64,000 bases of DNA from Lysobacterales bacterium (GCA_026982315.1 JALSHI010000024.1:1-64000), one strand, 5' to 3'; shown: positions 35,412 through 49,019, counted from the first letter of the stretch. Program-made: numbers and translations. The notes: generated from the letters alone by a model not told the origin.

Positions 35412-38162
35412 TCAGGCTTTGGTGCCTGTTTGGTCATATTTGTCAATTTCCCGAACCGTCAACAGATAGGATTTTTTGATGTTTTCCATAAGCGCATTCA
35501 ACCGTTGCATATCTTCGGAAAGGGCTTCGGCCTCCATGCGCTTGCAAAAGTAGCTGAGGCCCCGGGCACCGATATTGGCCGAGGAGGACTTGAGAGAATG
35601 GGCCAGGGTCCGCAGTTCCTGAAAATTCCGCGTTTGCAAAGCCTTGCGCATATGGCGCAAGGTGCCTGGGGCGTCTTGTTTAAACAGGGATAACAGCCGT
35701 TGCACATCATCACCCATGAATTCGCGGATTTCACTCAAGGTTTTTGTGCTGAGCCATTTGTCATTGATACTGGCATGGGGATGCTGTGCCGCTGTGGCGG
35801 CCGGGTTTTCCGGTTTGTTTTGTAAGGGATCCCATTTTTTCAGGGTTTTTTCCAGGACATACCGGTTCAGGGGCTTGGACATATAGTCATCCATACCGGC
35901 GTCCAGACATTTTTCCCTATCCCCCATCATGGCATTGGCGGTCATGGCGATAATGGGAGTACGCGGAAGACCTTCGGTTTCTTCGTATTCGCGGATACGT
36001 TGGGTGCACAAATAACCATCCATCACGGGCATTTGGCAGTCCATCAAAACCATTCGGTAGCGGGTTTTTTTGACTTTTTCCAGGGCCTCCAGTCCGTTTT
36101 TGGCCACGTCAAAAGTATAGCCAATGTACTGAATCAACTTTTGCGCCACCTTGAGATTCACTTCGTTGTCTTCCACCAGTAAAACACGCTCGTCAATGGC
36201 GCCAGTTGGTGTAACAGTGGCTGGCGTGTTGTTGGTTCCAGGCTGTTTGGAAACAATGGCAGCCGGTTGCTCACAGGTTGAGTCCGGTCTCTGTTCGGCT
36301 TCGTCCAGATCCAGCCCGCCAAAGCCGGAATCGCGCTGATGAGCAGCCTGTGGTGTTTTGTCGGTGGCTGAAGAGGTGGCGTCTTCTTTTAATCGCTGCA
36401 ACAGCTCGGTCAGTGGTGTTTTGGGCGCCAGCAGTTGAATGCGCGGGCTTTTCGGCACACCGGCAATGCGCGGCTGAGATGTGATGACACACAGAATAAA
36501 ATCATCTGCGTTATCCGGTTCCATGGTGTTGGCGATCAACTGACGGGCCTGTTTGGCTGCAGTATCAAAATCCACAAAAACCAGAACCCGTCCGGCCTTG
36601 TGGCTGTGCTGCCGGGTTTTTTTCAAATGATCTGTAATTTGGCTCAGGTGGTTAACGGCTTTTGCCCCGATGCTCAGGGATTTTAATTGAGACATGAGCC
36701 ACTGGCTGGTGGAAAAGCTGGTATTGAGAATCAGCGCCTGATAACCAGGGCCTGAAGAGCTGTGATCCGTATCGTCTGCTGCCTTTTGGGTGATAGCGCT
36801 GTGATGAACCGGCTTTAACAGCGGGATATCCACATAAAAGGTGCTGCCTTTGCCTTTTTCGGAATCGACGCCAATGCCCCCCCCCATGAGCTCCACAATT
36901 TTTTTGCTGATGGCCAGACCAATACCGGTACCGCCAAACTTGCGCGTGCTGGAACCATCGGCCTGGTTAAAGGCCTGAAACAAAAGGGTTTGTTGCTCCT
37001 TGTCAATGCCAATGCCCTGGTCTTTGACGCTGATGCGGACATGCTCGTGTTCCCCATCATCTCTGGTTTTGTCTGCCCGAACAGTGATAATGCCGCGGTC
37101 AGAAAACTTGATGGCGTTGCTCAGCAAATTGGTGACCACCTGCCTAAGACGCAACGGGTCACCCCGCAACAAAGGACTGATGTAAGGGGATACCTCCAGT
37201 TCAATGCGCAGGTTTTTCTTCTGGGCGGATGGTTCCAGGGCCTTGACCACGGATTCCAGCACTTGAGGCAGTTTCAGTCCCACCTGTTCAATTCGCAACT
37301 TGCCGGCTTCAACTTTGGAATAGTCCAGCAAGTCATCAATAAGCTTTTGCATTTGTTTGGCGGAAATAAACGCCGTTTGCAGGTAATCTTTCTGGAAATC
37401 AGACAGCTCGGAGTCCAGCAAAATATCCAGCAAGGGAATAATTCCGTTCAAGGGTGTGCGAATTTCATGGCTCATGGTGGCCAGAAATTCCATTTTGGTC
37501 ATTTCCGCAGAAGAAAGATCGGCTTCCAGCATGCGCACCTGATTTTTGAGTTCAGTGATTGTGCGTTCGGTTTCCGGGTCCGGCCCGGCCGGTGGTGTCA
37601 TAAGTGGCTCGGCAGCAGGATTTTCATCCAGGGTCGGAGCGGGATCTTCCTCCCAGCCTTCATTGGCCAAAAGGTGATGGCGGTACCCCAGAACCAGCCC
37701 AAGCAACAGCAAAAGACCAGTACCGGTCAGGTAGTATCCATGCGTCATCAGGACAATCGCGGCAGCCAGCCCGGCGGGCACGATACCCGCGGCCAAAAGC
37801 CGGACATCGCTTTCAGGCGTTAATATCAGATAGGCCAGCACAAGCGTGGCCAGAATAAAGAAAATCAGTGGCCAATTAGCGGACAAGGCGGTAAAAAAGC
37901 TTATACCCCACAAGGCAGACAACAAGGCGTGAAGGCCGGGCTTCAGTTTGTGCTCGAGGATTTCCTCATCCAGCCAGTCCCTGTCTGATTGTTCATCCAG
38001 CCAGGACAGGCCCACTACTACCAGCGCTACGACCATTATTAGCCACAAGCTCCAGCTGCCCATGCGACTAATGGCGATGCTCGCGATGACAACCAGCGCC
38101 GCATGCAGCAGCGCCAAGATAGCCGATGGCGCGGAGAACCATTGAGTCAGTTTTTTATTCAT
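35412..38162 (-). CDS. GacS/BarA-like hybrid histidine kinase
   Basis: 916 residues. About six transmembrane helices in the first 165 residues with short loops, so there is no large periplasmic sensor domain; a coiled segment (200-222); HisKA with His232 in SHEIRTPLNG; HATPase domain with GTGIGLAISKKIVELMGG; a degenerate receiver; a true receiver with Asp in VLMDCQMPVMDG and KPLN; and a C-terminal Hpt domain with LAHSLKSSSANIGA. This is the GacS/BarA phosphorelay layout. No GacA-type regulator gene is adjacent. It has a TATAAT just upstream. Confidence 0.92.
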   Translation of the reverse strand: MNKKLTQWFSAPSAILALLHAALVVIASIAISRMGSWSLWLIMVVALVVVGLSWLDEQSDRDWLDEEILEHKLKPGLHALLSALWGISFFTALSANWPLIFFILATLVLAYLILTPESDVRLLAAGIVPAGLAAAIVLMTHGYYLTGTGLLLLLGLVLGYRHHLLANEGWEEDPAPTLDENPAAEPLMTPPAGPDPETERTITELKNQVRMLEADLSSAEMTKMEFLATMSHEIRTPLNGIIPLLDILLDSELSDFQKDYLQTAFISAKQMQKLIDDLLDYSKVEAGKLRIEQVGLKLPQVLESVVKALEPSAQKKNLRIELEVSPYISPLLRGDPLRLRQVVTNLLSNAIKFSDRGIITVRADKTRDDGEHEHVRISVKDQGIGIDKEQQTLLFQAFNQADGSSTRKFGGTGIGLAISKKIVELMGGGIGVDSEKGKGSTFYVDIPLLKPVHHSAITQKAADDTDHSSSGPGYQALILNTSFSTSQWLMSQLKSLSIGAKAVNHLSQITDHLKKTRQHSHKAGRVLVFVDFDTAAKQARQLIANTMEPDNADDFILCVITSQPRIAGVPKSPRIQLLAPKTPLTELLQRLKEDATSSATDKTPQAAHQRDSGFGGLDLDEAEQRPDSTCEQPAAIVSKQPGTNNTPATVTPTGAIDERVLLVEDNEVNLKVAQKLIQYIGYTFDVAKNGLEALEKVKKTRYRMVLMDCQMPVMDGYLCTQRIREYEETEGLPRTPIIAMTANAMMGDREKCLDAGMDDYMSKPLNRYVLEKTLKKWDPLQNKPENPAATAAQHPHASINDKWLSTKTLSEIREFMGDDVQRLLSLFKQDAPGTLRHMRKALQTRNFQELRTLAHSLKSSSANIGARGLSYFCKRMEAEALSEDMQRLNALMENIKKSYLLTVREIDKYDQTGTKA

Positions 38163-38209: not shown

Positions 38210-39883
38210 TCAAAGGGATTGCTGGGAAAAGCTAAAGTCTACCTCAGCAGTGGGCGGTTGAATAAAATGACCTTGCAGGTAATCCACACCCAAGGTCCAT
38301 AATTGGGCCGTCTGTTTCATGGTGTCGACCTGGGGAACAAAAACCTGTTGCCCGCCAGCATGTGCCTGAGTAATCAAGGCGGCGCAAGGAGAGTCCTTTC
38401 CACCGGTAAAGAAGGTCGGATCATGTTGTGGGCTGGGGGTTCGCACCCAGTCGGCCTGCAACTGTTCCAGGGCGCGCCATTGTTCCGAAGCGCCGGAAAA
38501 GCCGCTCAAACACATGGCGATGCCCGCGTGCCGCAGGGTTTTTCCCAGCGAGTCCAATTGCGCCATATGCACAATGGCGTCTTGCACATCGAACTGAATC
38601 ACCAACTGGTGGCTGGGGCAGTCATCTGTCGGGTTGATAAACGGAGACACTTTTTCCACGAGCGAAGATACGCGAGAGTCCCGGTGGTGATGGAGATAGG
38701 CGTTCAGGCCTTGGTTGATTAACAGGCAATAGTGACGCCCTTCTCGGGCCTGTTGCAGCCAATTAATGGCTTGTTCCAGCACAATGTGGTCAAGGGTTTC
38801 CAGCAGGCCGGAGTTGCGGGCGGCATCGAGATAATCCTTGCCAGCCAGCATCGAGCCATTTGTGGTGATAATCCGCATCATCAGCTGGTATTTTTCCCGG
38901 TTGTCTTCTTTTTGGCTGACAAACGGCTGATAAAGCCAGCGGAAACGCCGGTCGTTAATGGCCTGCTGTAACTGGGCTTTTATCAAAAGAGACCGCTTTT
39001 CATGGGGCGTTTCGCCCACAAAATGGAGTTCTTTGTTTGTTTCGTCATCGCTGGTTTGTTGTTTGAGCAGTGACCGTTCGCCATGTTTCAACCACTCTTT
39101 TGCATCAGGGTGTCTGGAAAAATGACTAAAGGCCACGCCACACAATCCGGTCACCACGCTATGTTCGCCAATGGTTAATGGCTGCTGAAAAGCCGATTGG
39201 AGCCGGGAAAACCAGCGGCTGGTATTGGTGTGGTCGGTGGGAGCCAGCACCATTACCGTGGTTTCAGAAATCCGTATCACAGAGAGGTTTTTTAGTGCTT
39301 GTCGGAGGCGTTTGAACCACATCAGGGTTAAATCATAAAATGCGCCAATCCCTAAAAGCTTTCGCCATTTATCGGGTTGGGGAATCCCCAGCCATACCAC
39401 GCTGGCATGGTCTTCTTGCTGGTGTTTTTGCACAAATCGAGCAGCCAGTTTTTGGCTGTGTTGGCCCACGCAGCGGTGATTTTCCAGAGACTGGCGGTAA
39501 AGTTGCGCCTGACACTGGCGCAGCTGTTTTTTGATGTAGGCCCTGAGCTGATCTCCAGACAGGCTTTTGGGTAGCCAGCCTTCTGGTGTAGGCAACGACA
39601 TTAACCAGGGAACCGGTGATTCAGCCGTGGCTATAAACAAAAAACCGCGGTGTGATCTTAAAGCATCGCGGATACGCTGTATGTTGCTTGCCTTTGGTTC
39701 GGTTTCAGGCGGGTCAAGGATAATCAGTGCTGGGCGAAGGCGTTTGATATGGGTGGAAAGTGCCTCATGCGAAAAAGACACACAGGCGGCAGTTGGGTCA
39801 TCGTTTTTAAATAACGCAGACCAGAAGCTCTGCTGGTTGTTCGCGGTAACCACCAAAACAGAAGCCGGTAAAGAGTAATCCAT
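38210..39883 (-). CDS. FimX-like protein: receiver-like, degenerate GGDEF and degenerate EAL
   Basis: 557 residues, soluble. Residues about 5-115 resemble a receiver with LIILD as the phospho-Asp strand but without the acidic pair. A GGDEF-like domain reads RISETTVMV where RxGGDEF is expected. In the EAL-like domain (about 310-550) EAL reads LMM and the metal-binding Glu and Asp residues are replaced. The C-terminus, DYLQGHFIQPPTAEVDF, resembles the end of FimX, which binds c-di-GMP without degrading it and controls type IV pili. ATG 39883 is preferred for its AAGGGGGG site. The pilus link is inference. Confidence 0.78.
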   Translation of the reverse strand: MDYSLPASVLVVTANNQQSFWSALFKNDDPTAACVSFSHEALSTHIKRLRPALIILDPPETEPKASNIQRIRDALRSHRGFLFIATAESPVPWLMSLPTPEGWLPKSLSGDQLRAYIKKQLRQCQAQLYRQSLENHRCVGQHSQKLAARFVQKHQQEDHASVVWLGIPQPDKWRKLLGIGAFYDLTLMWFKRLRQALKNLSVIRISETTVMVLAPTDHTNTSRWFSRLQSAFQQPLTIGEHSVVTGLCGVAFSHFSRHPDAKEWLKHGERSLLKQQTSDDETNKELHFVGETPHEKRSLLIKAQLQQAINDRRFRWLYQPFVSQKEDNREKYQLMMRIITTNGSMLAGKDYLDAARNSGLLETLDHIVLEQAINWLQQAREGRHYCLLINQGLNAYLHHHRDSRVSSLVEKVSPFINPTDDCPSHQLVIQFDVQDAIVHMAQLDSLGKTLRHAGIAMCLSGFSGASEQWRALEQLQADWVRTPSPQHDPTFFTGGKDSPCAALITQAHAGGQQVFVPQVDTMKQTAQLWTLGVDYLQGHFIQPPTAEVDFSFSQQSL

Positions 39884-39996: not shown

Positions 39997-41493
39997 TTAG
40001 CGCTGTTCAGGAAATATTTTGCTTAACTCATCGACCAGGGTTTGTTCGTCGATGGGCTTGGGAATCACCGCGGAAAACCCCCGCTGCAACAGGCGTTCGA
40101 CGGTTTTTGGGTGTGGCAGGGCCGACATGGCCAGAACGGGTAATTTCTGGCTGTGAGCGCGCACTTGATCCAGTACTGATTCGCCGCTGCCGTCGGCCAG
40201 GTTAATGTCCGTGAGAATCAAATCAAAGCGCCGACGGCTAAAAAGTTCGGCCGCGTCCCCGGCGCTATGAGCGGTGACCACAAAAAGGCCGAGATCTTCC
40301 AGTAACAATTGGCACAGGTAAAGAATGTCCTTATCATCATCCACAATCAGCACATGCTTGTTTTTGAGTTTTTCTGGTCGCATGCTGTGGACGGTTTTGT
40401 CTGTGTTGGTTTGCACGGGAACGTCCAAACAAAATTCTGTTCCGCTTTTTGATGTTTTTGTCATTCGCAGGGATCCACCCAGAGATTCAGCCAATTGCTT
40501 GCTGATCACCAGACCCAGGCCGGTTCCGCTGGCTTGAGGTTGTGTGCCGCGAACCCAGGGAGTGAAAAGCCGGTGTATTTTATCGGCAGGAATCCCGCTC
40601 CCGGTGTCTTGCACCCGGAATGTAACATTTGTTTTTTCTGTCCCGTCAACCACAAGCCGCACCTGGCCGCAGGCGGTGTACTTGAACGCATTACTGAGTA
40701 AATTGACCAGTATCTGGCGCAAGCGGTAACGATCCCCAGACAGGGTTTCCGGCATGGAAATCGGCAGGATCTCAAAGGTCAACCCCTTGCTGTCTGCCAG
40801 CGGTTGCAAGGTGCTTTTCAGGTCTTCCAGCAAGTTTTGGAGAGAAAATGACTCATGATTCACAGGCGCATTACCGGCATGTAGCTGGCCATATTGCAGG
40901 GCGTTGTGAATCATGTTCACCAGGGAGTCGGCATTGCGGCGAATCACGCTGGTGGCTTTATCCGCTGGAATCTTGCCTTTTTCCAGCAATTCGGCATACC
41001 CTTTGATGGCTGACAATGGCGTGCCAAATTCATGGGAAAGCATGGCAATCAGCATGGCTTTTTCTTCATTGGCCTTGTACAGGCGGGCCTGTGTGGCCGT
41101 CAGCTCATCAATCAGGCGTTTGAAATAGTCGTTGGACAGTTGGACGTTATGGCTATGTTGCTGGTGACGGGAAATGACATCAAACTGATCGGTGCGATCC
41201 AGTAACAAAATAAAATGTTGCTGTTGGTCGGTGACGTAATGCAGGTCACAAACCAGCCCGGGCTTCAGGTTTAAAAAGGATAATTGAAAAGGCGCGTCAA
41301 ATGTTTCGGTTTCCAGCGCCGGGTGAATGTGTGTAACCGGTTTTCCCGGCTCCAGGTCGTTAAAGCCAAAATGCTCAGGGGCGCCATAAACCGCAAGCGT
41401 CTCAAAAGTGTCTTTGTCAAACGCAATGGCCAGGTGGCCGTTCTGGGCGCGGTGGTGAAGCAAATACTCCTTCAGAACGGCCGGCAGTTTCAT
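39997..41493 (-). CDS. Hybrid sensor histidine kinase (PAS-like, HisKA, HATPase, receiver)
   Basis: 498 residues, no transmembrane segment. The N-terminal part (1-105) looks PAS-like, followed by a coiled stretch, HisKA with His154 in MLSHEFGTPLSAIKGY, HATPase with GTGLGLVISKQLAESLGG, and a C-terminal receiver with the phospho-Asp in LILTDINLADGSG and the Lys in IPKPID. Its ATG overlaps the stop of the small GTPase gene (ATGA), so the kinase is made with the GTPase. A soluble kinase here may sense through the OmpA protein or GTPase (inference). Confidence 0.93.
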   Translation of the reverse strand: MKLPAVLKEYLLHHRAQNGHLAIAFDKDTFETLAVYGAPEHFGFNDLEPGKPVTHIHPALETETFDAPFQLSFLNLKPGLVCDLHYVTDQQQHFILLLDRTDQFDVISRHQQHSHNVQLSNDYFKRLIDELTATQARLYKANEEKAMLIAMLSHEFGTPLSAIKGYAELLEKGKIPADKATSVIRRNADSLVNMIHNALQYGQLHAGNAPVNHESFSLQNLLEDLKSTLQPLADSKGLTFEILPISMPETLSGDRYRLRQILVNLLSNAFKYTACGQVRLVVDGTEKTNVTFRVQDTGSGIPADKIHRLFTPWVRGTQPQASGTGLGLVISKQLAESLGGSLRMTKTSKSGTEFCLDVPVQTNTDKTVHSMRPEKLKNKHVLIVDDDKDILYLCQLLLEDLGLFVVTAHSAGDAAELFSRRRFDLILTDINLADGSGESVLDQVRAHSQKLPVLAMSALPHPKTVERLLQRGFSAVIPKPIDEQTLVDELSKIFPEQR

Positions 41494-41996
41494 TGGTCCT
41501 TCAATAGTCGCTTGGCCAGCTCGGTAAAACCCTGTTCGACATTTTCACCGGTTTTGGCGCTGCTGAACAAGACGAACCCGAAAACCTTTTGTAAATGGGC
41601 AATGTCTTCGTTACGGATGCGCCACTGATCCAGCAAATCATGTTTGTTAATCAGGCATACACCCGGCACAGCATGGATGGATTGGTGATTCTGGTGGATG
41701 GCCAGTAACTTCTGCCAGGAAGCCGGCTCGGTGCCATCGGCCACCCACAGGACGCCGTGACTGCCGCGCAAGTACTGCTGGTAGTGGGCAACCTGTTCAA
41801 AACCGGCGATATCCCAGATAATCAGCTTGATCGTCTGCGCATTAATGTTCAGGGTTTTGGTGTGAATACTGACCCCGACGGTGGTTTGGTAGCGTTCGTC
41901 GAACACATTTTCCACAAACCGGCGCACCAGCGATGTTTTACCCACAGCCAGGCGGCCCAGCAGGCAGATTTTTCGTGTCAGGACAGGGGCGCTCAT
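41490..41996 (-). CDS. Ras/Rab-like small GTPase
   Basis: 168 residues, a single G domain of small-GTPase size. G1 is GRLAVGKTS (14-22), G2 Thr near 38-39 (QTTVG), G3 WDIAGFE (61-67), G4 NKHD (117-120) and G5 SSAKTG (145-150). The Gln after DxxG that Ras uses for hydrolysis is Phe66, so intrinsic GTPase activity should be low and a partner is expected. There is no C-terminal Cys for lipidation. ATG 41996 overlaps the OmpA gene stop (ATGA). Bacterial relatives such as MglA act in cell polarity; here the partners would be the OmpA protein and the kinase. Confidence 0.9.
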   Translation of the reverse strand: MSAPVLTRKICLLGRLAVGKTSLVRRFVENVFDERYQTTVGVSIHTKTLNINAQTIKLIIWDIAGFEQVAHYQQYLRGSHGVLWVADGTEPASWQKLLAIHQNHQSIHAVPGVCLINKHDLLDQWRIRNEDIAHLQKVFGFVLFSSAKTGENVEQGFTELAKRLLKDQ

Positions 41997-43846
41997 GGTA
42001 GGTGGCCTTCTGCTGGCTGAATAACTTTGGTTGTGACTCGTCGCAAGGCTGGATCTAGACGGGCCGGGCCGCTGGCGCATGGTTTGGTGTCTGTTTGTAT
42101 CCGTTGCTTGTCCACCCCGTGCTGGACTAGCGCTTGTTTGACATGTTCAGCCCGGCGTTGAGCGAGTTTCTGGTTGGCCTCTGGTGAACCGGTACAGTCC
42201 GTGCTGCCGGTCAGTGTAATGGCCATGCGCGGGTCTTGCTGTTGCAGGAGTTTTAGCTTGTCGGCCAAAGAGGTTATTGACTGTTTGCCTTCCGCGGTGA
42301 TTTGAGTTCCGCGGGGCATGGTGATAACAGAGGCATTGATGGCTGCGATCAGGGCGTCTTTATCCGGCAAAACGCGGAGATGCCGGGTGTCGATGGCCAT
42401 GTCAGGAAAGGCCTGGGTCACAGCCGCCAGCCAGGATTTAATCTGGGTGCCTGAGGTTTCGCCTTGCAGGGTGAGTTGTTGGTTGGTCATCGTGGCCTGA
42501 ATGTTTTCCGGAACGGGATTTCGGGACAAAAACCGCTGCCATGGACTGACCGGTGCGGTAACCTGAGTGCTGTCCACGGCATTCACGCCCGGCATGGCCA
42601 GTAATTGCCGGCGCAGTGAAGCCAGTGTGTTTTCCGAAGCGGTGCCGGAAAGCGTGACCTGGCCATTTTCCGCCAGGCGGGCCTGCAAGGCGGTGCCTTC
42701 CGACAGTCGCTGGAGGCGTTTTTGCACCAGAGACGCGTCCAGTGATAAATAAGGGCGCAGACGAAATTTAACACCATCATGGCGCACAACTGACAAATCC
42801 GCCAACGGGTCTTTGAGGCCGGTGACCAGCAGGCCATCATCGCTGCTGCGAATGTCCTGTAAAACAAATCCGGGGATGTGTTTAAGCTGGGCTGTTAGGT
42901 TGTGCAGTTGTTTTTTGTGTTGCAAATAGCGCCAACCGCCCCAGGCGACCAGTGCCATTAACACAAGAGCCGCTATCCAGCCTTTTTGGCGAGACAGGCC
43001 GGTGTGGTTGTCATCATCGTCTGCCTGGCGGTTTTTGGTGATAAGCAGGTCTTCCAACTCCAACCGAACCGGTGGCAACTGGCCGTACTGGTCACTGTTT
43101 GCCAGTTCCTCTGCATAGAGAAAATGGATTTTATCCAGGGCGTCCTGTAACGATTCGCGCAGGCGTTCAGACGGATTGCCTTTGATAAGCACAGCCAGAT
43201 ACGCCCGGGGGCCATCAATAATCCACAACTGGTATTCGCCCAGTTCCGCGCTGCGCAGGCGGCTGCCGGTATCATCGGCCAGGGTGTCGGCGACAAAATC
43301 GTTAATGGCCGTCAGCATGGCTGAAAAGGCGTCCTTGTCCCGGGCCAGCTCCCCTTCGTGGCCGGCATATTCGATGAGCAGGCCGCTGTCTTTATCAATC
43401 AGAAAAGCGTGCTGAACCTGGTATTCCACCGTGTTGAGAAAAACCAGCTCGGCAAATGGCACACCGGTTTTCCAGGACTGCCAGCGCCATTTGATGGCCT
43501 TGGGCGAGAGCCCCAGTTCCAGTATGCGGTTGAGATCCGCCATGAGCTTTTTGATGGACGCGCTCACCGAAGCCCGGATCATGGGGCCAATCACCGGCAC
43601 AAAGGCATCGATAATGGAGCGTTGCTCCCGCTTAAGGGCGGTTTTCAGCCCTTCCCCAATGGGCTTGGCCAAAGAGGCCTGGTAGGCGGGGTCTTTTTTC
43701 CATGCCCGTTGGGTGGCGGTGGCCAGAACATCGGCGACAGCTTCGCTAAAGTGCTCGGACTCCAGCACTTTTTCCCGCAACTGTTGCAGCAAGGCCAGTT
43801 CATCGGCCAGCAGCAACTGTTTGATTTTGTCGCTTTCGCTGTTCAT
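41993..43846 (-). CDS. OmpA-domain protein with cytosolic longin-like domain and BON-like domain
   Basis: 617 residues. Residues 1-288 have no signal peptide and are cytosolic; about 130-245 (VQHAFLIDKDSGLLIEY ... ELGEYQLWIIDGPRAYLAVLIKGN) look like a roadblock/longin-type fold. One transmembrane helix lies at 289-307. The periplasmic part has a BON-like stretch (about 390-430; GQVTLSGTASENTLASLRRQ) and a C-terminal OmpA/MotB peptidoglycan-binding domain (about 505-615; LTGSTDCTGSPEANQKLAQRR). So the protein reaches from cytosol to cell wall. It overlaps the small GTPase gene by ATGA. Confidence 0.85.
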   Translation of the reverse strand: MNSESDKIKQLLLADELALLQQLREKVLESEHFSEAVADVLATATQRAWKKDPAYQASLAKPIGEGLKTALKREQRSIIDAFVPVIGPMIRASVSASIKKLMADLNRILELGLSPKAIKWRWQSWKTGVPFAELVFLNTVEYQVQHAFLIDKDSGLLIEYAGHEGELARDKDAFSAMLTAINDFVADTLADDTGSRLRSAELGEYQLWIIDGPRAYLAVLIKGNPSERLRESLQDALDKIHFLYAEELANSDQYGQLPPVRLELEDLLITKNRQADDDDNHTGLSRQKGWIAALVLMALVAWGGWRYLQHKKQLHNLTAQLKHIPGFVLQDIRSSDDGLLVTGLKDPLADLSVVRHDGVKFRLRPYLSLDASLVQKRLQRLSEGTALQARLAENGQVTLSGTASENTLASLRRQLLAMPGVNAVDSTQVTAPVSPWQRFLSRNPVPENIQATMTNQQLTLQGETSGTQIKSWLAAVTQAFPDMAIDTRHLRVLPDKDALIAAINASVITMPRGTQITAEGKQSITSLADKLKLLQQQDPRMAITLTGSTDCTGSPEANQKLAQRRAEHVKQALVQHGVDKQRIQTDTKPCASGPARLDPALRRVTTKVIQPAEGHLP

Positions 43847-43878
43847 GCTGGTGTTAACCCATGTGCTGGTTCACAAGA

Positions 43879-44307
43879 TCAATCAGCCAGCTTTGCGGCC
43901 AATTCCTGCAGTAATTTGGCCAGTTCGTTTCGGTCTGTTTTGTGATGGTCCAGGGCGGCGGTACGGTCGCTGAGTTGCTGGCTCAGGTCTGCTTCGGTCT
44001 CGGCGATTTTGTGTTGCAACTGTTTTTCCACCTGTTGTAGGTCTTCAGCCAGCGCGTTGGCAGTTTGTTGTTGCTCGTGTTTGAGGCTTTTGTCCAGTTG
44101 CTCGAGCCGCTGGCTGATCTGTGTATTCAGCTGCTCAATGGTTTGTCCAAGCTCGGTGATTTTGTCTTGCATCTGCGCTTCCAGGGAGGCGAAGCGTTGT
44201 TGGAATTCGCGCAGGTGCTGCCCAAACAGGATGTCGCGGATTTGTTCAACGGAATCCTGTGCAGGCGGATTGCTGTGGTTGGGGTTTGCCGGTTTTTTTT
44301 CTGCCAT
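43879..44307 (-). CDS. Coiled-coil protein of the GTPase-OmpA locus
   Basis: 142 residues. After a polar start (1-20) comes VEQIRDILFGQHLREFQQRFASLEAQM, then an almost continuous coiled coil rich in Gln, Leu and Glu to the end (about 30-140). No signal or membrane segment. It lies 32 bases before the OmpA gene on the same strand, so it is probably part of the same module, perhaps a scaffold. I cannot assign a named family. Confidence 0.75.
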   Translation of the reverse strand: MAEKKPANPNHSNPPAQDSVEQIRDILFGQHLREFQQRFASLEAQMQDKITELGQTIEQLNTQISQRLEQLDKSLKHEQQQTANALAEDLQQVEKQLQHKIAETEADLSQQLSDRTAALDHHKTDRNELAKLLQELAAKLAD

Positions 44308-44449
44308 AAAATATCTCCGATGGTCTCAAGACCCATCCTGAAAGGAAGTCAATGAAAAATTGCTCAAAGTCTATCATGACTGGCCAGAAAGGCCCATGGG
44401 TCATGGATGTAATGGGTGGAGTTTCTGGCACCAGTGGATTGGCCGGAAA

Positions 44450-45145
44450 TCAGGCCACGTGGCGCTTTTCCCGAACCATTTTGTAACCCTGGTGGTAGAC
44501 GGAGATCAGCTTCCAGCCATATGAGCCATCCAGGTGCAGCTTTTTTCGCAACCGGCTGATGTGGGTGTCCACGGTGCGGGTGTTGATATCCGAGCTGCGC
44601 ACCCAAATGGTTTCCAGCAGGCTTTTGCGGGACACCAGGCGCCCGGGATTTTTAAAGAAATGCACAGCCAGGTCAAACTCCTTGGCCGTTAGGGAAATCT
44701 CTGTACCATCAAGGCTGATGCGGCCGTTTTCAATGTCAATGTGATAAGGGGAGGTGTCTTCCAGGCTGGGCTTGTGGGTTTTGTTATAGCGGCGGCTGAC
44801 TGCCGCCAGGCGTGCCAGCAGCTCGGCCTGGGTGATGGGTTTGGCAATGTAGTCGTCCGCGCCTTGGGTTAAGGCCTCTACCATATCGTCTTCATCGGCC
44901 CGCGCAGACAGGAAAATCACCGGAATGTCATCATAGCGGCTGGCCTTGATCCAGTGCAGGACATCCATGCCGTCAATCACCGGCAGGTTCCAGTCCAGCA
45001 AGGCAATATCCGGCAAGTCAAAGGGAATGCGGCGGATAAACTCACGCCCGGTGTCAAATAACTGGCACTCATGACCGTTTTCTTCCAGCCACAGTTTATA
45101 GAGCTGAGCCTGATCCGGATCATCTTCCAGAATAAATATTTTCAT
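44450..45145 (-). CDS. OmpR-family response regulator
   Basis: 231 residues. Receiver domain (1-120) with the acidic pair EDD, phospho-Asp in ALLDWNLPVIDG and Lys in IAKPIT; winged-helix DNA-binding domain (about 130-225) with VSRKSLLETIW and NTRTVDTHISRLRKKL. It is the first gene of the block that continues with the coiled-coil, OmpA, GTPase and hybrid-kinase genes, and the kinase is a candidate partner. Confidence 0.94.
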   Translation of the reverse strand: MKIFILEDDPDQAQLYKLWLEENGHECQLFDTGREFIRRIPFDLPDIALLDWNLPVIDGMDVLHWIKASRYDDIPVIFLSARADEDDMVEALTQGADDYIAKPITQAELLARLAAVSRRYNKTHKPSLEDTSPYHIDIENGRISLDGTEISLTAKEFDLAVHFFKNPGRLVSRKSLLETIWVRSSDINTRTVDTHISRLRKKLHLDGSYGWKLISVYHQGYKMVREKRHVA

Positions 45146-46628: not shown

Positions 46629-46848
46629 ACCAATATTCCTCAAGCACCGACTTGGCGCGGGTTTCTTTTTCCCATGGCACCAGGACGCGAACAGGTTGGT
46701 CCAGAGGCAGTTCTCCCAGTCCTCCGGACAGGTATTGTCCGGTCACCTGAGCGGGGATTCCATGGTGATTCAACAACTCTTTGACCAGCCAGGCTTCGGT
46801 GAGCTGGTTGCTGGAAAATACGCACATGATGTGTTGCTTCGGTTTCAT
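46606..46848 (-). CDS. DUF2007 family small protein
   Basis: 80 residues: MKPKQHIMCVFSSNQLTEAW, VKELLNHHGIPAQVTGQYLSGG and a conserved VLVPWEKETRAKSVLEEY. This is the DUF2007 (putative signal-transducing) fold. It overlaps the NtrY-like kinase gene by ATGA and sits where ntrX usually follows ntrY. Function unknown. Confidence 0.85.
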   Translation of the reverse strand: MKPKQHIMCVFSSNQLTEAWLVKELLNHHGIPAQVTGQYLSGGLGELPLDQPVRVLVPWEKETRAKSVLEEYWYETSQPF

Positions 46849-49019
46849 GGCTTTTCCGTGTCTTTTAGTGGCAGAACCGGCAGACGAATTTCCACGACGG
46901 CCCCACCCTCGGGGTGATTATAGGCGCGAATACTGCCGCCGTGTTCTTCAACGATTTTTTTGACAATGGCCAGCCCCAGACCCGAGCCGCCGGTTTTGGT
47001 GGTGACATACGGTTCAAACAGATGTTCGAGAGTGTTTTCATCAAATCCGGGCCCATGGTCGCGGATGGTGAGAACAAGGGTTTTTTCCGTTCCTTGTTGT
47101 TGTGTTTGGGTGGCAATGGCAATGCGGGTGTCGGACTGGCTTTCCTGGGCATTTTTAATCAAATTGGTCAGTAATTGCTGGATGCGGTTTTTATCCAACA
47201 ACAAAACCGGTTCTGGTTCATTTAGATCCAATTCGAAAGTAATGCCCGGATGTGACAGGGCATAGAGGTTAACCGCTTCCCGCACCAGTTGGTTAAGGCC
47301 GCCGGGTTCGCGCTTCAATTGCGGCGCCTTGGCATAGTCGGAAAAAGCATTCACCAGGGTTTTCAGCGTTTCCACCTGGGAGATGATGGTATCAGTGGTG
47401 CGGCTCATGATTTCCGCATCCTCCGGCGCCATCCGCGACAAAAAGCGTAAGCGCAGACGTTCCGCGGACAGTTGGATCGGCGTAAGCGGGTTTTTGACCT
47501 CATGGGCCAAGCGCCGCGCCACCTCGCCCCAGGCGGCATCGCGCTGGGCCTGGTTGAGTACGGTCTCATCATCAAATACCACCACCAAACCGCCCTCCTC
47601 TTGCTCCCGCTCGGGAATCCGGCTGCCCCGCACCACCAGAATACGACGAAAAGAATCTTCGGCCAGTAATACCTCTTGCTGCCATTCGTCTGAGCGGTCG
47701 GCCAGTTTTTTCAGAATCAGGTCCACCAACGGCTGCAAGGCATGGTTTTTGTGTGAGAGAAACTCCAGATCCTGGTTCACCAGGTCTTTTAAATCCAGGT
47801 GCAAAATAGCCGCGGCCGCGGCATTGGCCATGAGAATACGCTGGTTTTTATCAATACTTAAAACCCCGCTGGACAGGTGTGACAGTACGCTTTGCAGATA
47901 CCAGCGTTGAGACTCGGCTTCTACCTGGGAGCGGTGTGCCAGGGCGCTGGAGGCGGCCAGTTGCGACGACATGGTATTAAACGATTGCACCAGAAAACCC
48001 AGTTCGTCACTGGATTCCACGGGAATGCGGTGGCCAAACTCCCCCTTGGCAATGGATTGGGTGGCTTCGCTTAACAGCCGTACAGGGGCCACCAGTTGCC
48101 GGGCGGCGGAAAAGGCCCGTAACAGGGCCAGTAACACACTTAGCAGCAAGACAATGGTCAGGATGATAATAAAGGTTTGTTTGACCTGGGTGCGCTGGTA
48201 GGCTTGGCGCTTGTAGTCGTGATACGTGGTTTCAATGTTATTGGCCAGCGCGCTGTAGGCCGGTGGCACGGGAAACAGCGCTTGCAGAAAACGCTGGCGG
48301 CCAGAAGTTTGCAGGGCATTGGTGGCCACCGGCACCAATGTCCGGATTTGCAAGCCTTTTTCAGCCGGTTCCACACGGGCGTAGGTTTGCCCGTGACGGA
48401 CATTTTGCAGGGCTTGTTGCGGAGGCAGGCTGGTTTGCAGCGAAAACGGGTCCAGATTGCTGTTGGCCAGAATGGTGCCGTTGTCGTCCAGCAGGCTGAG
48501 ACTGATGGCGCCGCCGGCGTCGTCCAGCAGGCTGTCCAGGCGAATGATCTGCGCGGCCGGATTCATTTCCGCCAGTTGCCGCGCCAGGCGCTTGCTGATG
48601 CCAAGGTTTCGCCGTGTTTGGGTTTCAAGGAAGATTTGCCCCAGAGACAAAGAGTCACGCAAGGCTTTTTCCGTGTCACTACTGAACCAGCTATCCACAT
48701 AACGATCCACAAATTGATTGGCAAACAGGTACAGAATCAGGATAGGCGGTAAGGACAGGGTGATAAAAGTGGCGACCAGTCTGGAAGTCAGGTGAATCCC
48801 CGGCGCATTGTTCCGGCGTTTGAGAAAAAGCCATATCAAGCGCTGAATAATCACCAGGGAGAGGATGGCAACGGCCAGAATCGAGGCGCCAAACAACCAC
48901 AAATACATGCGATTGAACTGTTCGCGTCCCTGAATGGCTTCTCCCAGCCAGTACAGGGCACCCAGCAAAAAGGCAATGATGACAAAGGTCGGCAGAGAAC
49001 GTTTTAGAAACCGCTTCAT
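46845..49019 (-). CDS. NtrY-like sensor histidine kinase
   Basis: 724 residues. Several N-terminal transmembrane helices (about 12-30, 42-62, 85-110) and one near 283-305 enclose a periplasmic domain; then HAMP (about 310-365), PAS (about 380-490), HisKA with RLAHEVKNPLTPIQLSAERLR, and HATPase with GSGLGLAIVKKIVEEHGG. This is the NtrY type found after rsmB and DUF4390 in gammaproteobacteria. Its usual partner ntrX is missing. The start overlaps the DUF4390 stop by ATGA. Confidence 0.92.
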   Translation of the reverse strand: MKRFLKRSLPTFVIIAFLLGALYWLGEAIQGREQFNRMYLWLFGASILAVAILSLVIIQRLIWLFLKRRNNAPGIHLTSRLVATFITLSLPPILILYLFANQFVDRYVDSWFSSDTEKALRDSLSLGQIFLETQTRRNLGISKRLARQLAEMNPAAQIIRLDSLLDDAGGAISLSLLDDNGTILANSNLDPFSLQTSLPPQQALQNVRHGQTYARVEPAEKGLQIRTLVPVATNALQTSGRQRFLQALFPVPPAYSALANNIETTYHDYKRQAYQRTQVKQTFIIILTIVLLLSVLLALLRAFSAARQLVAPVRLLSEATQSIAKGEFGHRIPVESSDELGFLVQSFNTMSSQLAASSALAHRSQVEAESQRWYLQSVLSHLSSGVLSIDKNQRILMANAAAAAILHLDLKDLVNQDLEFLSHKNHALQPLVDLILKKLADRSDEWQQEVLLAEDSFRRILVVRGSRIPEREQEEGGLVVVFDDETVLNQAQRDAAWGEVARRLAHEVKNPLTPIQLSAERLRLRFLSRMAPEDAEIMSRTTDTIISQVETLKTLVNAFSDYAKAPQLKREPGGLNQLVREAVNLYALSHPGITFELDLNEPEPVLLLDKNRIQQLLTNLIKNAQESQSDTRIAIATQTQQQGTEKTLVLTIRDHGPGFDENTLEHLFEPYVTTKTGGSGLGLAIVKKIVEEHGGSIRAYNHPEGGAVVEIRLPVLPLKDTEKP

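Follow-up and report, generated by a model that had tools for sequence, protein, structure and literature searches.

Which task a small Ras-like GTPase may perform in a bacterium, when its gene lies between those for an envelope-spanning OmpA protein and a soluble histidine kinase, is the question raised by a locus of a Lysobacterales bacterium. The window, i.e. the whole stretch of DNA analysed, is 64,000 nucleotides long (GCA_026982315.1 JALSHI010000024.1:1-64000). The first-pass annotation had described five genes on one strand, encoding in order of transcription an OmpR-type regulator, a coiled-coil protein, a protein running from the cytosol through the membrane to an OmpA domain, the GTPase and a soluble hybrid kinase, and had read them as one module, in which a Ras-like GTPase is coupled to the OmpA protein and to two-component proteins. 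All five frames are open, lie on the minus strand and occur in the order claimed. The ATGA overlaps reported at the last two junctions are real, and the coupling of the module to envelope protein and kinase is supported. The features of the locus and of two downstream genes are listed below.

44450..45145, minus strand: P0005, OmpR/PhoB-type response regulator, REC plus winged helix (Pfam)
43879..44307, minus strand: P0003, cytoplasmic coiled-coil protein, 142 aa (weak matches to coiled-coil families)
41993..43846, minus strand: P0002, predicted longin/roadblock - TM - OmpA protein, 617 aa (Pfam OmpA; AlphaFold2 and Foldseek on residues 1-286)
43466..43846, minus strand: P0002 residues 1-127, N-terminal helical bundle (model helices 2-28, 30-51, 53-73, 75-111, 115-127)
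43118..43456, minus strand: P0002 residues 131-243, predicted longin/roadblock-like domain, a-b-b-a-b-b-b-a (model, PDB matches, conservation)
42929..42985, minus strand: P0002 residues about 288-306, single TM helix (hydrophobic stretch GWIAALVLMALVAWGGWRY, read from the sequence)
42092..42313, minus strand: P0002 residues 512-585, OmpA-like peptidoglycan-binding domain (Pfam OmpA, motif read)
41993..41996, minus strand: ATGA overlap, OmpA-protein stop and GTPase start
41490..41996, minus strand: P0001, Rab/Ras-like GTPase (Group 1 Rup), 168 aa (Pfam Ras, PDB Rab matches, G-boxes)
41490..41493, minus strand: ATGA overlap, GTPase stop and kinase start
39997..41493, minus strand: P0004, soluble output, PAS-like - HisKA - HATPase - REC, 498 aa (Pfam; model of residues 1-150)
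41194..41493, minus strand: P0004 residues 1-100, predicted PAS-like domain common to outputs of GTPase loci (AlphaFold2, Foldseek)
41158..41160, minus strand: codon for P0004 Q112, the only invariant residue of the output N-termini
38210..39883, minus strand: P0006, degenerate REC - GGDEF-like - EAL protein, probable downstream effector (Pfam EAL 4.2e-24)
35412..38162, minus strand: P0007, membrane hybrid kinase, HisKA-HATPase-REC-Hpt (Pfam)

Relation to the Group 1 Rup systems

P0001 matches the Pfam Ras family (E=1e-28), and its top PDB matches by sequence are Rabs. A longer frame starting at 42080 is a mere upstream extension to the first start codon; the true start, at 41996, is the one within the ATGA overlap. 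Among 97 distinct loci with a longin gene, the G1 (GxxxxGK[TS]), G3 (WDxxG), G4 (NKxD) and G5 (SA) boxes are essentially invariant. F66 occupies the position of the catalytic glutamine (Q61 in Ras), and a glutamine is found there in 1 of 132 loci. As read from the alignments, the nucleotide-binding boxes are intact and the catalytic glutamine is missing.

GTPases of this kind were described in 2014 by Wuichet and Søgaard-Andersen as Group 1 Rup. They lack the G3 catalytic glutamine, and their neighbours encode a coiled-coil protein, a second protein in which a conserved domain is often joined to TM and OmpA, and an output, either a kinase or a GGDEF/EAL protein, whose N-terminal invariant glutamine was tied to a possible glutamine acting in trans (PMC4316618). 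The same survey ranks Group 1 Rup among the prokaryotic GTPases nearest to Rab/Ras/Rho/Ran, and no member had been characterised experimentally at the time (PMC4316618). Later experimental work on Rup systems was not found in the literature, subscription journals being thinly covered by the search. The window locus has Ras-type G-motifs without the G3 glutamine, a coiled-coil protein, a domain-TM-OmpA protein and a glutamine-bearing output, and is almost certainly a Group 1 Rup system. Having been published in 2014, the gene set is therefore not new (PMC4316618).

Conservation of the set was tested in relatives, and the co-occurrence proved strong and incompatible with random adjacency. The longin/OmpA protein and the GTPase were both sought in 61 genomes, of which 32 have the two, 26 neither, and 3 are discordant, the lone gene sitting at a contig edge in each of them; on the 58 concordant genomes Fisher p is 4.5e-17, uncorrected for relatedness. 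A set of 194 distinct GTPase loci was compared, neighbourhoods being fetched after searches of contigs and genomes. The longin gene lies directly upstream of the GTPase gene in 151 loci, and an output gene directly downstream in 170. Coiled coil and longin are accompanied by a class 1 output in 110 loci and by a class 2 output in 33; 13 loci carry longin and output, 25 GTPase and output only, one, archaeal, has the longin gene only, and in 12, all archaeal, the GTPase stands alone. An output module is present at every bacterial locus of the set. Gene order is kept in Pseudomonadota, Bacteroidota, Chloroflexota and a Caldithrix record.

Such a GTPase is encoded in single copy in the genome of the window. 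Sixteen genomes were checked, nearly all picked for a GTPase locus devoid of the longin gene (G000 served as control), and each of them carries that gene, either at its other GTPase locus or in some other place. Four genomes (G168, G431, G825, G831) have two GTPase-output pairs and a single longin gene; a longin protein may work with more than one pair. The order conserved across phyla, the co-occurrence of unlinked genes and a natural fusion described below all argue against the view that the adjacent genes are functionally unrelated. Nothing was found in favour of this view, the regulator and the EAL-like protein being admittedly variable neighbours, and it is hardly credible.

The two upstream genes differ in their constancy. 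P0003 retrieves from Pfam coiled-coil noise only, and of the 143 loci which have a homologue along with the longin gene, 136 have it immediately 5' of the latter. P0005 matches Pfam Response_reg (3.6e-27) and Trans_reg_C (5.1e-21), and in 40 other loci, 41 with the window, a homologue (44-90% identity) is encoded just 5' of the coiled-coil gene. The spacing between regulator and coiled-coil genes is 142 bp, so the regulator may be outside the transcript of the latter. The OmpR-type regulator is an accessory, lineage-specific component, frequent and not universal. Compared to the 2014 description, both the regulator and the degenerate EAL protein around the window copy are lineage-specific. Further upstream, on the same strand, a membrane histidine kinase with HATPase and four TMs is encoded at 46845-49019; a kinase similar to it precedes the module in L011 and in other Marinicella loci.

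Downstream, the EAL motif of P0006 reads YQLMMR and the DDFG-type metal site LSGFSG, and Lysobacterales homologues have likewise lost the catalytic residues. An active c-di-GMP phosphodiesterase is thereby rejected, and from the degenerate EAL domain we infer that P0006 more likely binds c-di-GMP, as a receptor, than hydrolyses it. A P0006 homologue directly follows the output kinase in L007, L008 and L010. P0007 is a possible phosphorelay partner. A 66% homologue of P0007 is encoded in L002 along with an EAL-like protein and the output kinase, in the same order as in the window; the linkage is seen only in this closest relative.

The predicted longin/roadblock domain of P0002

The cytosolic part of the OmpA protein had been suspected at first reading to resemble a roadblock/longin fold, and structural modelling agrees. 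Residues 1-286 were modelled by AlphaFold2 from 81 aligned sequences (mean pLDDT 85, pTM 0.59), and in the model residues 131-243 form a sheet of five strands flanked by helices, the elements following one another as in longin/roadblock folds. Foldseek retrieved 21 PDB matches at E<=1e-3, at the top of which are the Mon1-Ccz1 GEF, TRAPP subunits, Ragulator, a Streptomyces roadblock, Asgard roadblocks and MglB; the matches span part of the model only (TMq about 0.3, TMt 0.5-0.68). Conservation is highest in helix 171-188 (D170, M177, A180, F184, D187). Profile searches with the longin alignment against Pfam and PDB matched no family, and the fold rests accordingly on the model, by which a longin/roadblock fold is predicted for the cytosolic domain. 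In 2014 the domain of the membrane protein was called 'Unc'; the putative longin/roadblock fold, and the PAS-like fold of the output N-terminus discussed below, are assigned here.

The OmpA domain of P0002 (Pfam E=5.8e-14, 52.7 bits) retains the TDxxGS and RRAexV residues; no signal peptide is visible by eye in the protein. Longin proteins of Bacteroidota correspond to the cytosolic domain alone, without TM or OmpA, and those of Chloroflexota terminate in a TM, without OmpA. The OmpA domain is thus an add-on, and not part of the core of the module. A contig of a DHVE2 archaeal MAG encodes a protein (L032:805-3729, minus strand) made of seven PKD repeats, a TM and a longin-like half, and a Rup-like GTPase gene lies beside it on the opposite strand. 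Since the contig measures 3.7 kb and comes from a metagenome bin, it is uncertain whether it carries an archaeal surface-receptor version of the module or is a contaminant.

Likeness to eukaryotic pairs is twofold, as the GTPase matches Rabs and the modelled partner matches subunits of longin GEFs (TRAPP, Mon1-Ccz1). Unlike Rabs, P0001 has neither a lipidated C-terminus nor a catalytic glutamine; unlike Rab GEFs, the partner would be anchored to peptidoglycan, and its exchange role is putative. In bacteria, the best studied GTPase-roadblock pair is MglA/MglB (PMC2907295, PMC6876712). The likeness consists of a bacterial small GTPase joined to a partner with a predicted roadblock fold, and MglB is itself among the Foldseek matches of P0002, which would fit a polarity module where GTPase and longin protein mark a wall site and recruit the kinase. 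However, the GTPase is Rab/Rup-like, its G3 box reads WDIAGF and not TVPGQ/GTPGQ as in MglA, and the outputs are not motility factors but soluble enzymes; a polarity module is improbable, and the positioning role suggested in the first-pass annotation is not supported. GTPase family and gene neighbourhood differ as well, the set includes no MglB gene, and the roadblock-like fold of the model is carried by a TM-OmpA protein lacking sequence similarity to Pfam families. Both the G3 motif and the genes present rule out membership in the MglA/MglB system. Actinobacterial conservons (Cvn/AGPS; PMC13343842, PMC8510531) similarly combine a histidine kinase, a roadblock protein and a small GTPase in one operon, but the GTPase is MglA-type, the MglB-type protein is separate, the kinase is CvnA, and no OmpA or longin membrane protein occurs. 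Genes for MglB-type roadblock, CvnC and MglA-type GTPase are missing in the window and its relatives, and the locus is not a conservon.

Contact between GTPase and longin domain was searched by mean-field coevolution on 112, then 155 GTPase-longin pairs, the first run being dominated by indel columns, which were subsequently filtered. With 155 pairs the real pairing scores 7.3 and shuffled ones at most 3.8, a difference which includes shared ancestry. Of the 20 top inter-protein pairs, eight connect the switch/effector face of the GTPase with the longin half, against 3.0 expected (p=0.005, for a region picked post hoc), and the GTPase-longin couplings are not enriched over intra-protein ones. 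The same approach revealed no contact patch between GTPase and output. A contact at the switch face is, on this covariation, suggestive only.

Exchange-factor or activating functions of the longin domain are a guess, because roadblock/longin domains are also plain scaffolds. Ragulator roadblocks act in this way. The longin domain might accordingly be a passive scaffold by which the GTPase is kept at the membrane, the real regulator being the coiled-coil protein, whose gene is so regularly placed directly 5' of the longin gene. In the 13 loci with longin and output, however, a coiled-coil gene was undetected near the GTPase, though the profile is weak and genes may have been missed. That the longin domain is a mere scaffold is quite improbable.

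Output modules and their invariant glutamine

P0004 has no TM. Its residues 1-150 were modelled by AlphaFold2 with 79 aligned sequences (mean pLDDT 94.6), and the model features the strand order of PAS domains, followed by one long helix (residues 101-149). The best Foldseek matches are PAS domains, with modest E-values (3.2e-3 at best), and a PAS-like fold is predicted for the output N-terminus. Q112, located on the long helix, is the sole invariant column in the alignment (79/79), and is found in 138/139 sequences of another set. A second class of outputs, which includes GGDEF-EAL and HD-GYP enzymes, is about 10% identical to the first and has an invariant glutamine of its own (40/40), which profile alignment places on Q112 (E 2.2e-5, probability 76%); members were collected by profile, a procedure which could favour sequences having the residue. 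By alignment, two divergent output classes have one invariant glutamine in common.

Enzymatic ends vary: HisKA-HATPase-REC, GGDEF-EAL (L027), HD-GYP (L023, L026, L021, L168), a class III cyclase (L029:7495-8544) and a sigma-54 activator with HTH_8 (L035:7521-8900). The last two kinds do not feature in the 2014 description. Other outputs are stand-alone, with no enzymatic end (L040, L045), as is the Saprospiraceae output, a domain of about 144 aa. Outputs swap freely behind a constant N-terminus, for which a PAS-like fold is predicted. Both N-terminal classes occur in tandem before HD-GYP in one protein of L168 (2566-4038, minus strand), and two separate proteins with the output N-terminal domain are encoded at one locus (L202:3363-3791 and L202:4896-5336).

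GTPase and PAS-type output are fused in one 662-aa ORF in genome G437 (L126:845-2833, minus strand); at the related loci L142 and L146 the two genes are separate and overlap in the ATGA fashion. Candidate GTPase fusions in G055, G446 and G669 were discarded, the long ORFs being upstream frame extensions, and only the one in G437 is a true fusion. HD-GYP, class III cyclase, sigma-54 activator and stand-alone outputs, the fusion, and the unlinked and multi-GTPase arrangements all go beyond the Group 1 Rup systems as known in 2014.

Direction of the signal and meaning of the module

The outer part of the membrane protein is variable, the longin-GTPase-PAS core constant, and the enzyme variable again. 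An outside-in switch is favoured for this reason, and this is the direction we infer. According to this view, the OmpA domain would hold P0002 to peptidoglycan, and the state of the envelope would be relayed to the longin domain by the single TM. This domain may bind the switch/effector face of the GTPase and set its nucleotide state, either as exchange factor or as activator. The GTP-bound form would dock on the PAS domain and helix of the output kinase, where the invariant glutamine may act in trans as the missing residue of the GTPase active site, hydrolysis ending the signal. Phosphate would plausibly move from the kinase to its own REC and also to regulators, for which the OmpR-type protein encoded upstream and the REC-EAL-like protein encoded downstream are candidates. 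That a wall-tethered longin receptor sets the state of the GTPase, which in turn sets the activity of the output, has about an even chance of being correct.

The same components may work in the opposite direction. PAS domains are sensors, and the kinase PAS could be both sensor and GAP, by virtue of the invariant glutamine, the GTPase acting as an output on the longin-OmpA protein, for example as a wall-attachment switch. An invariant glutamine in the output N-terminus and a GTPase without one of its own fit an inside-out signal, as does the published speculation on a glutamine in trans, together with the likeness to conservons, where the GTPase is taken as the output (PMC4316618). Yet the many kinds of enzymatic output are more easily explained by one switch upstream of them all than by one target downstream, the Bacteroidota longin protein has neither TM nor OmpA, and in Saprospiraceae the output is no more than a stand-alone domain. 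An inside-out signal is rather unlikely. Against the outside-in scheme, for its part, the invariant glutamine might serve the coiled-coil signalling helix instead of the GTPase.

The outside-in switch may be given a more specific form, in which the module is a bacterial Rab-plus-longin pair, with a wall-tethered longin exchange factor and GTP hydrolysis completed by the glutamine of the output helix, an extant counterpart of the longin-GEF/Rab pairs by which eukaryotes organise their membranes. In this full form the reading is doubtful. Novel with respect to earlier knowledge are the predicted longin fold, the PAS-like output with its shared glutamine, output swapping, the fusion, and the presence of two GTPase-output pairs per longin gene. 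A longin/roadblock partner and an invariant glutamine on a PAS helix would turn an unexplained operon into a defined switch, in which exchange-factor, activator and effector roles can be tested. By its predicted shape, the inner half of P0002 resembles partners controlling Rab GTPases in human cells, and the existence of a longin-Rab regulatory pairing in bacteria becomes a testable matter.
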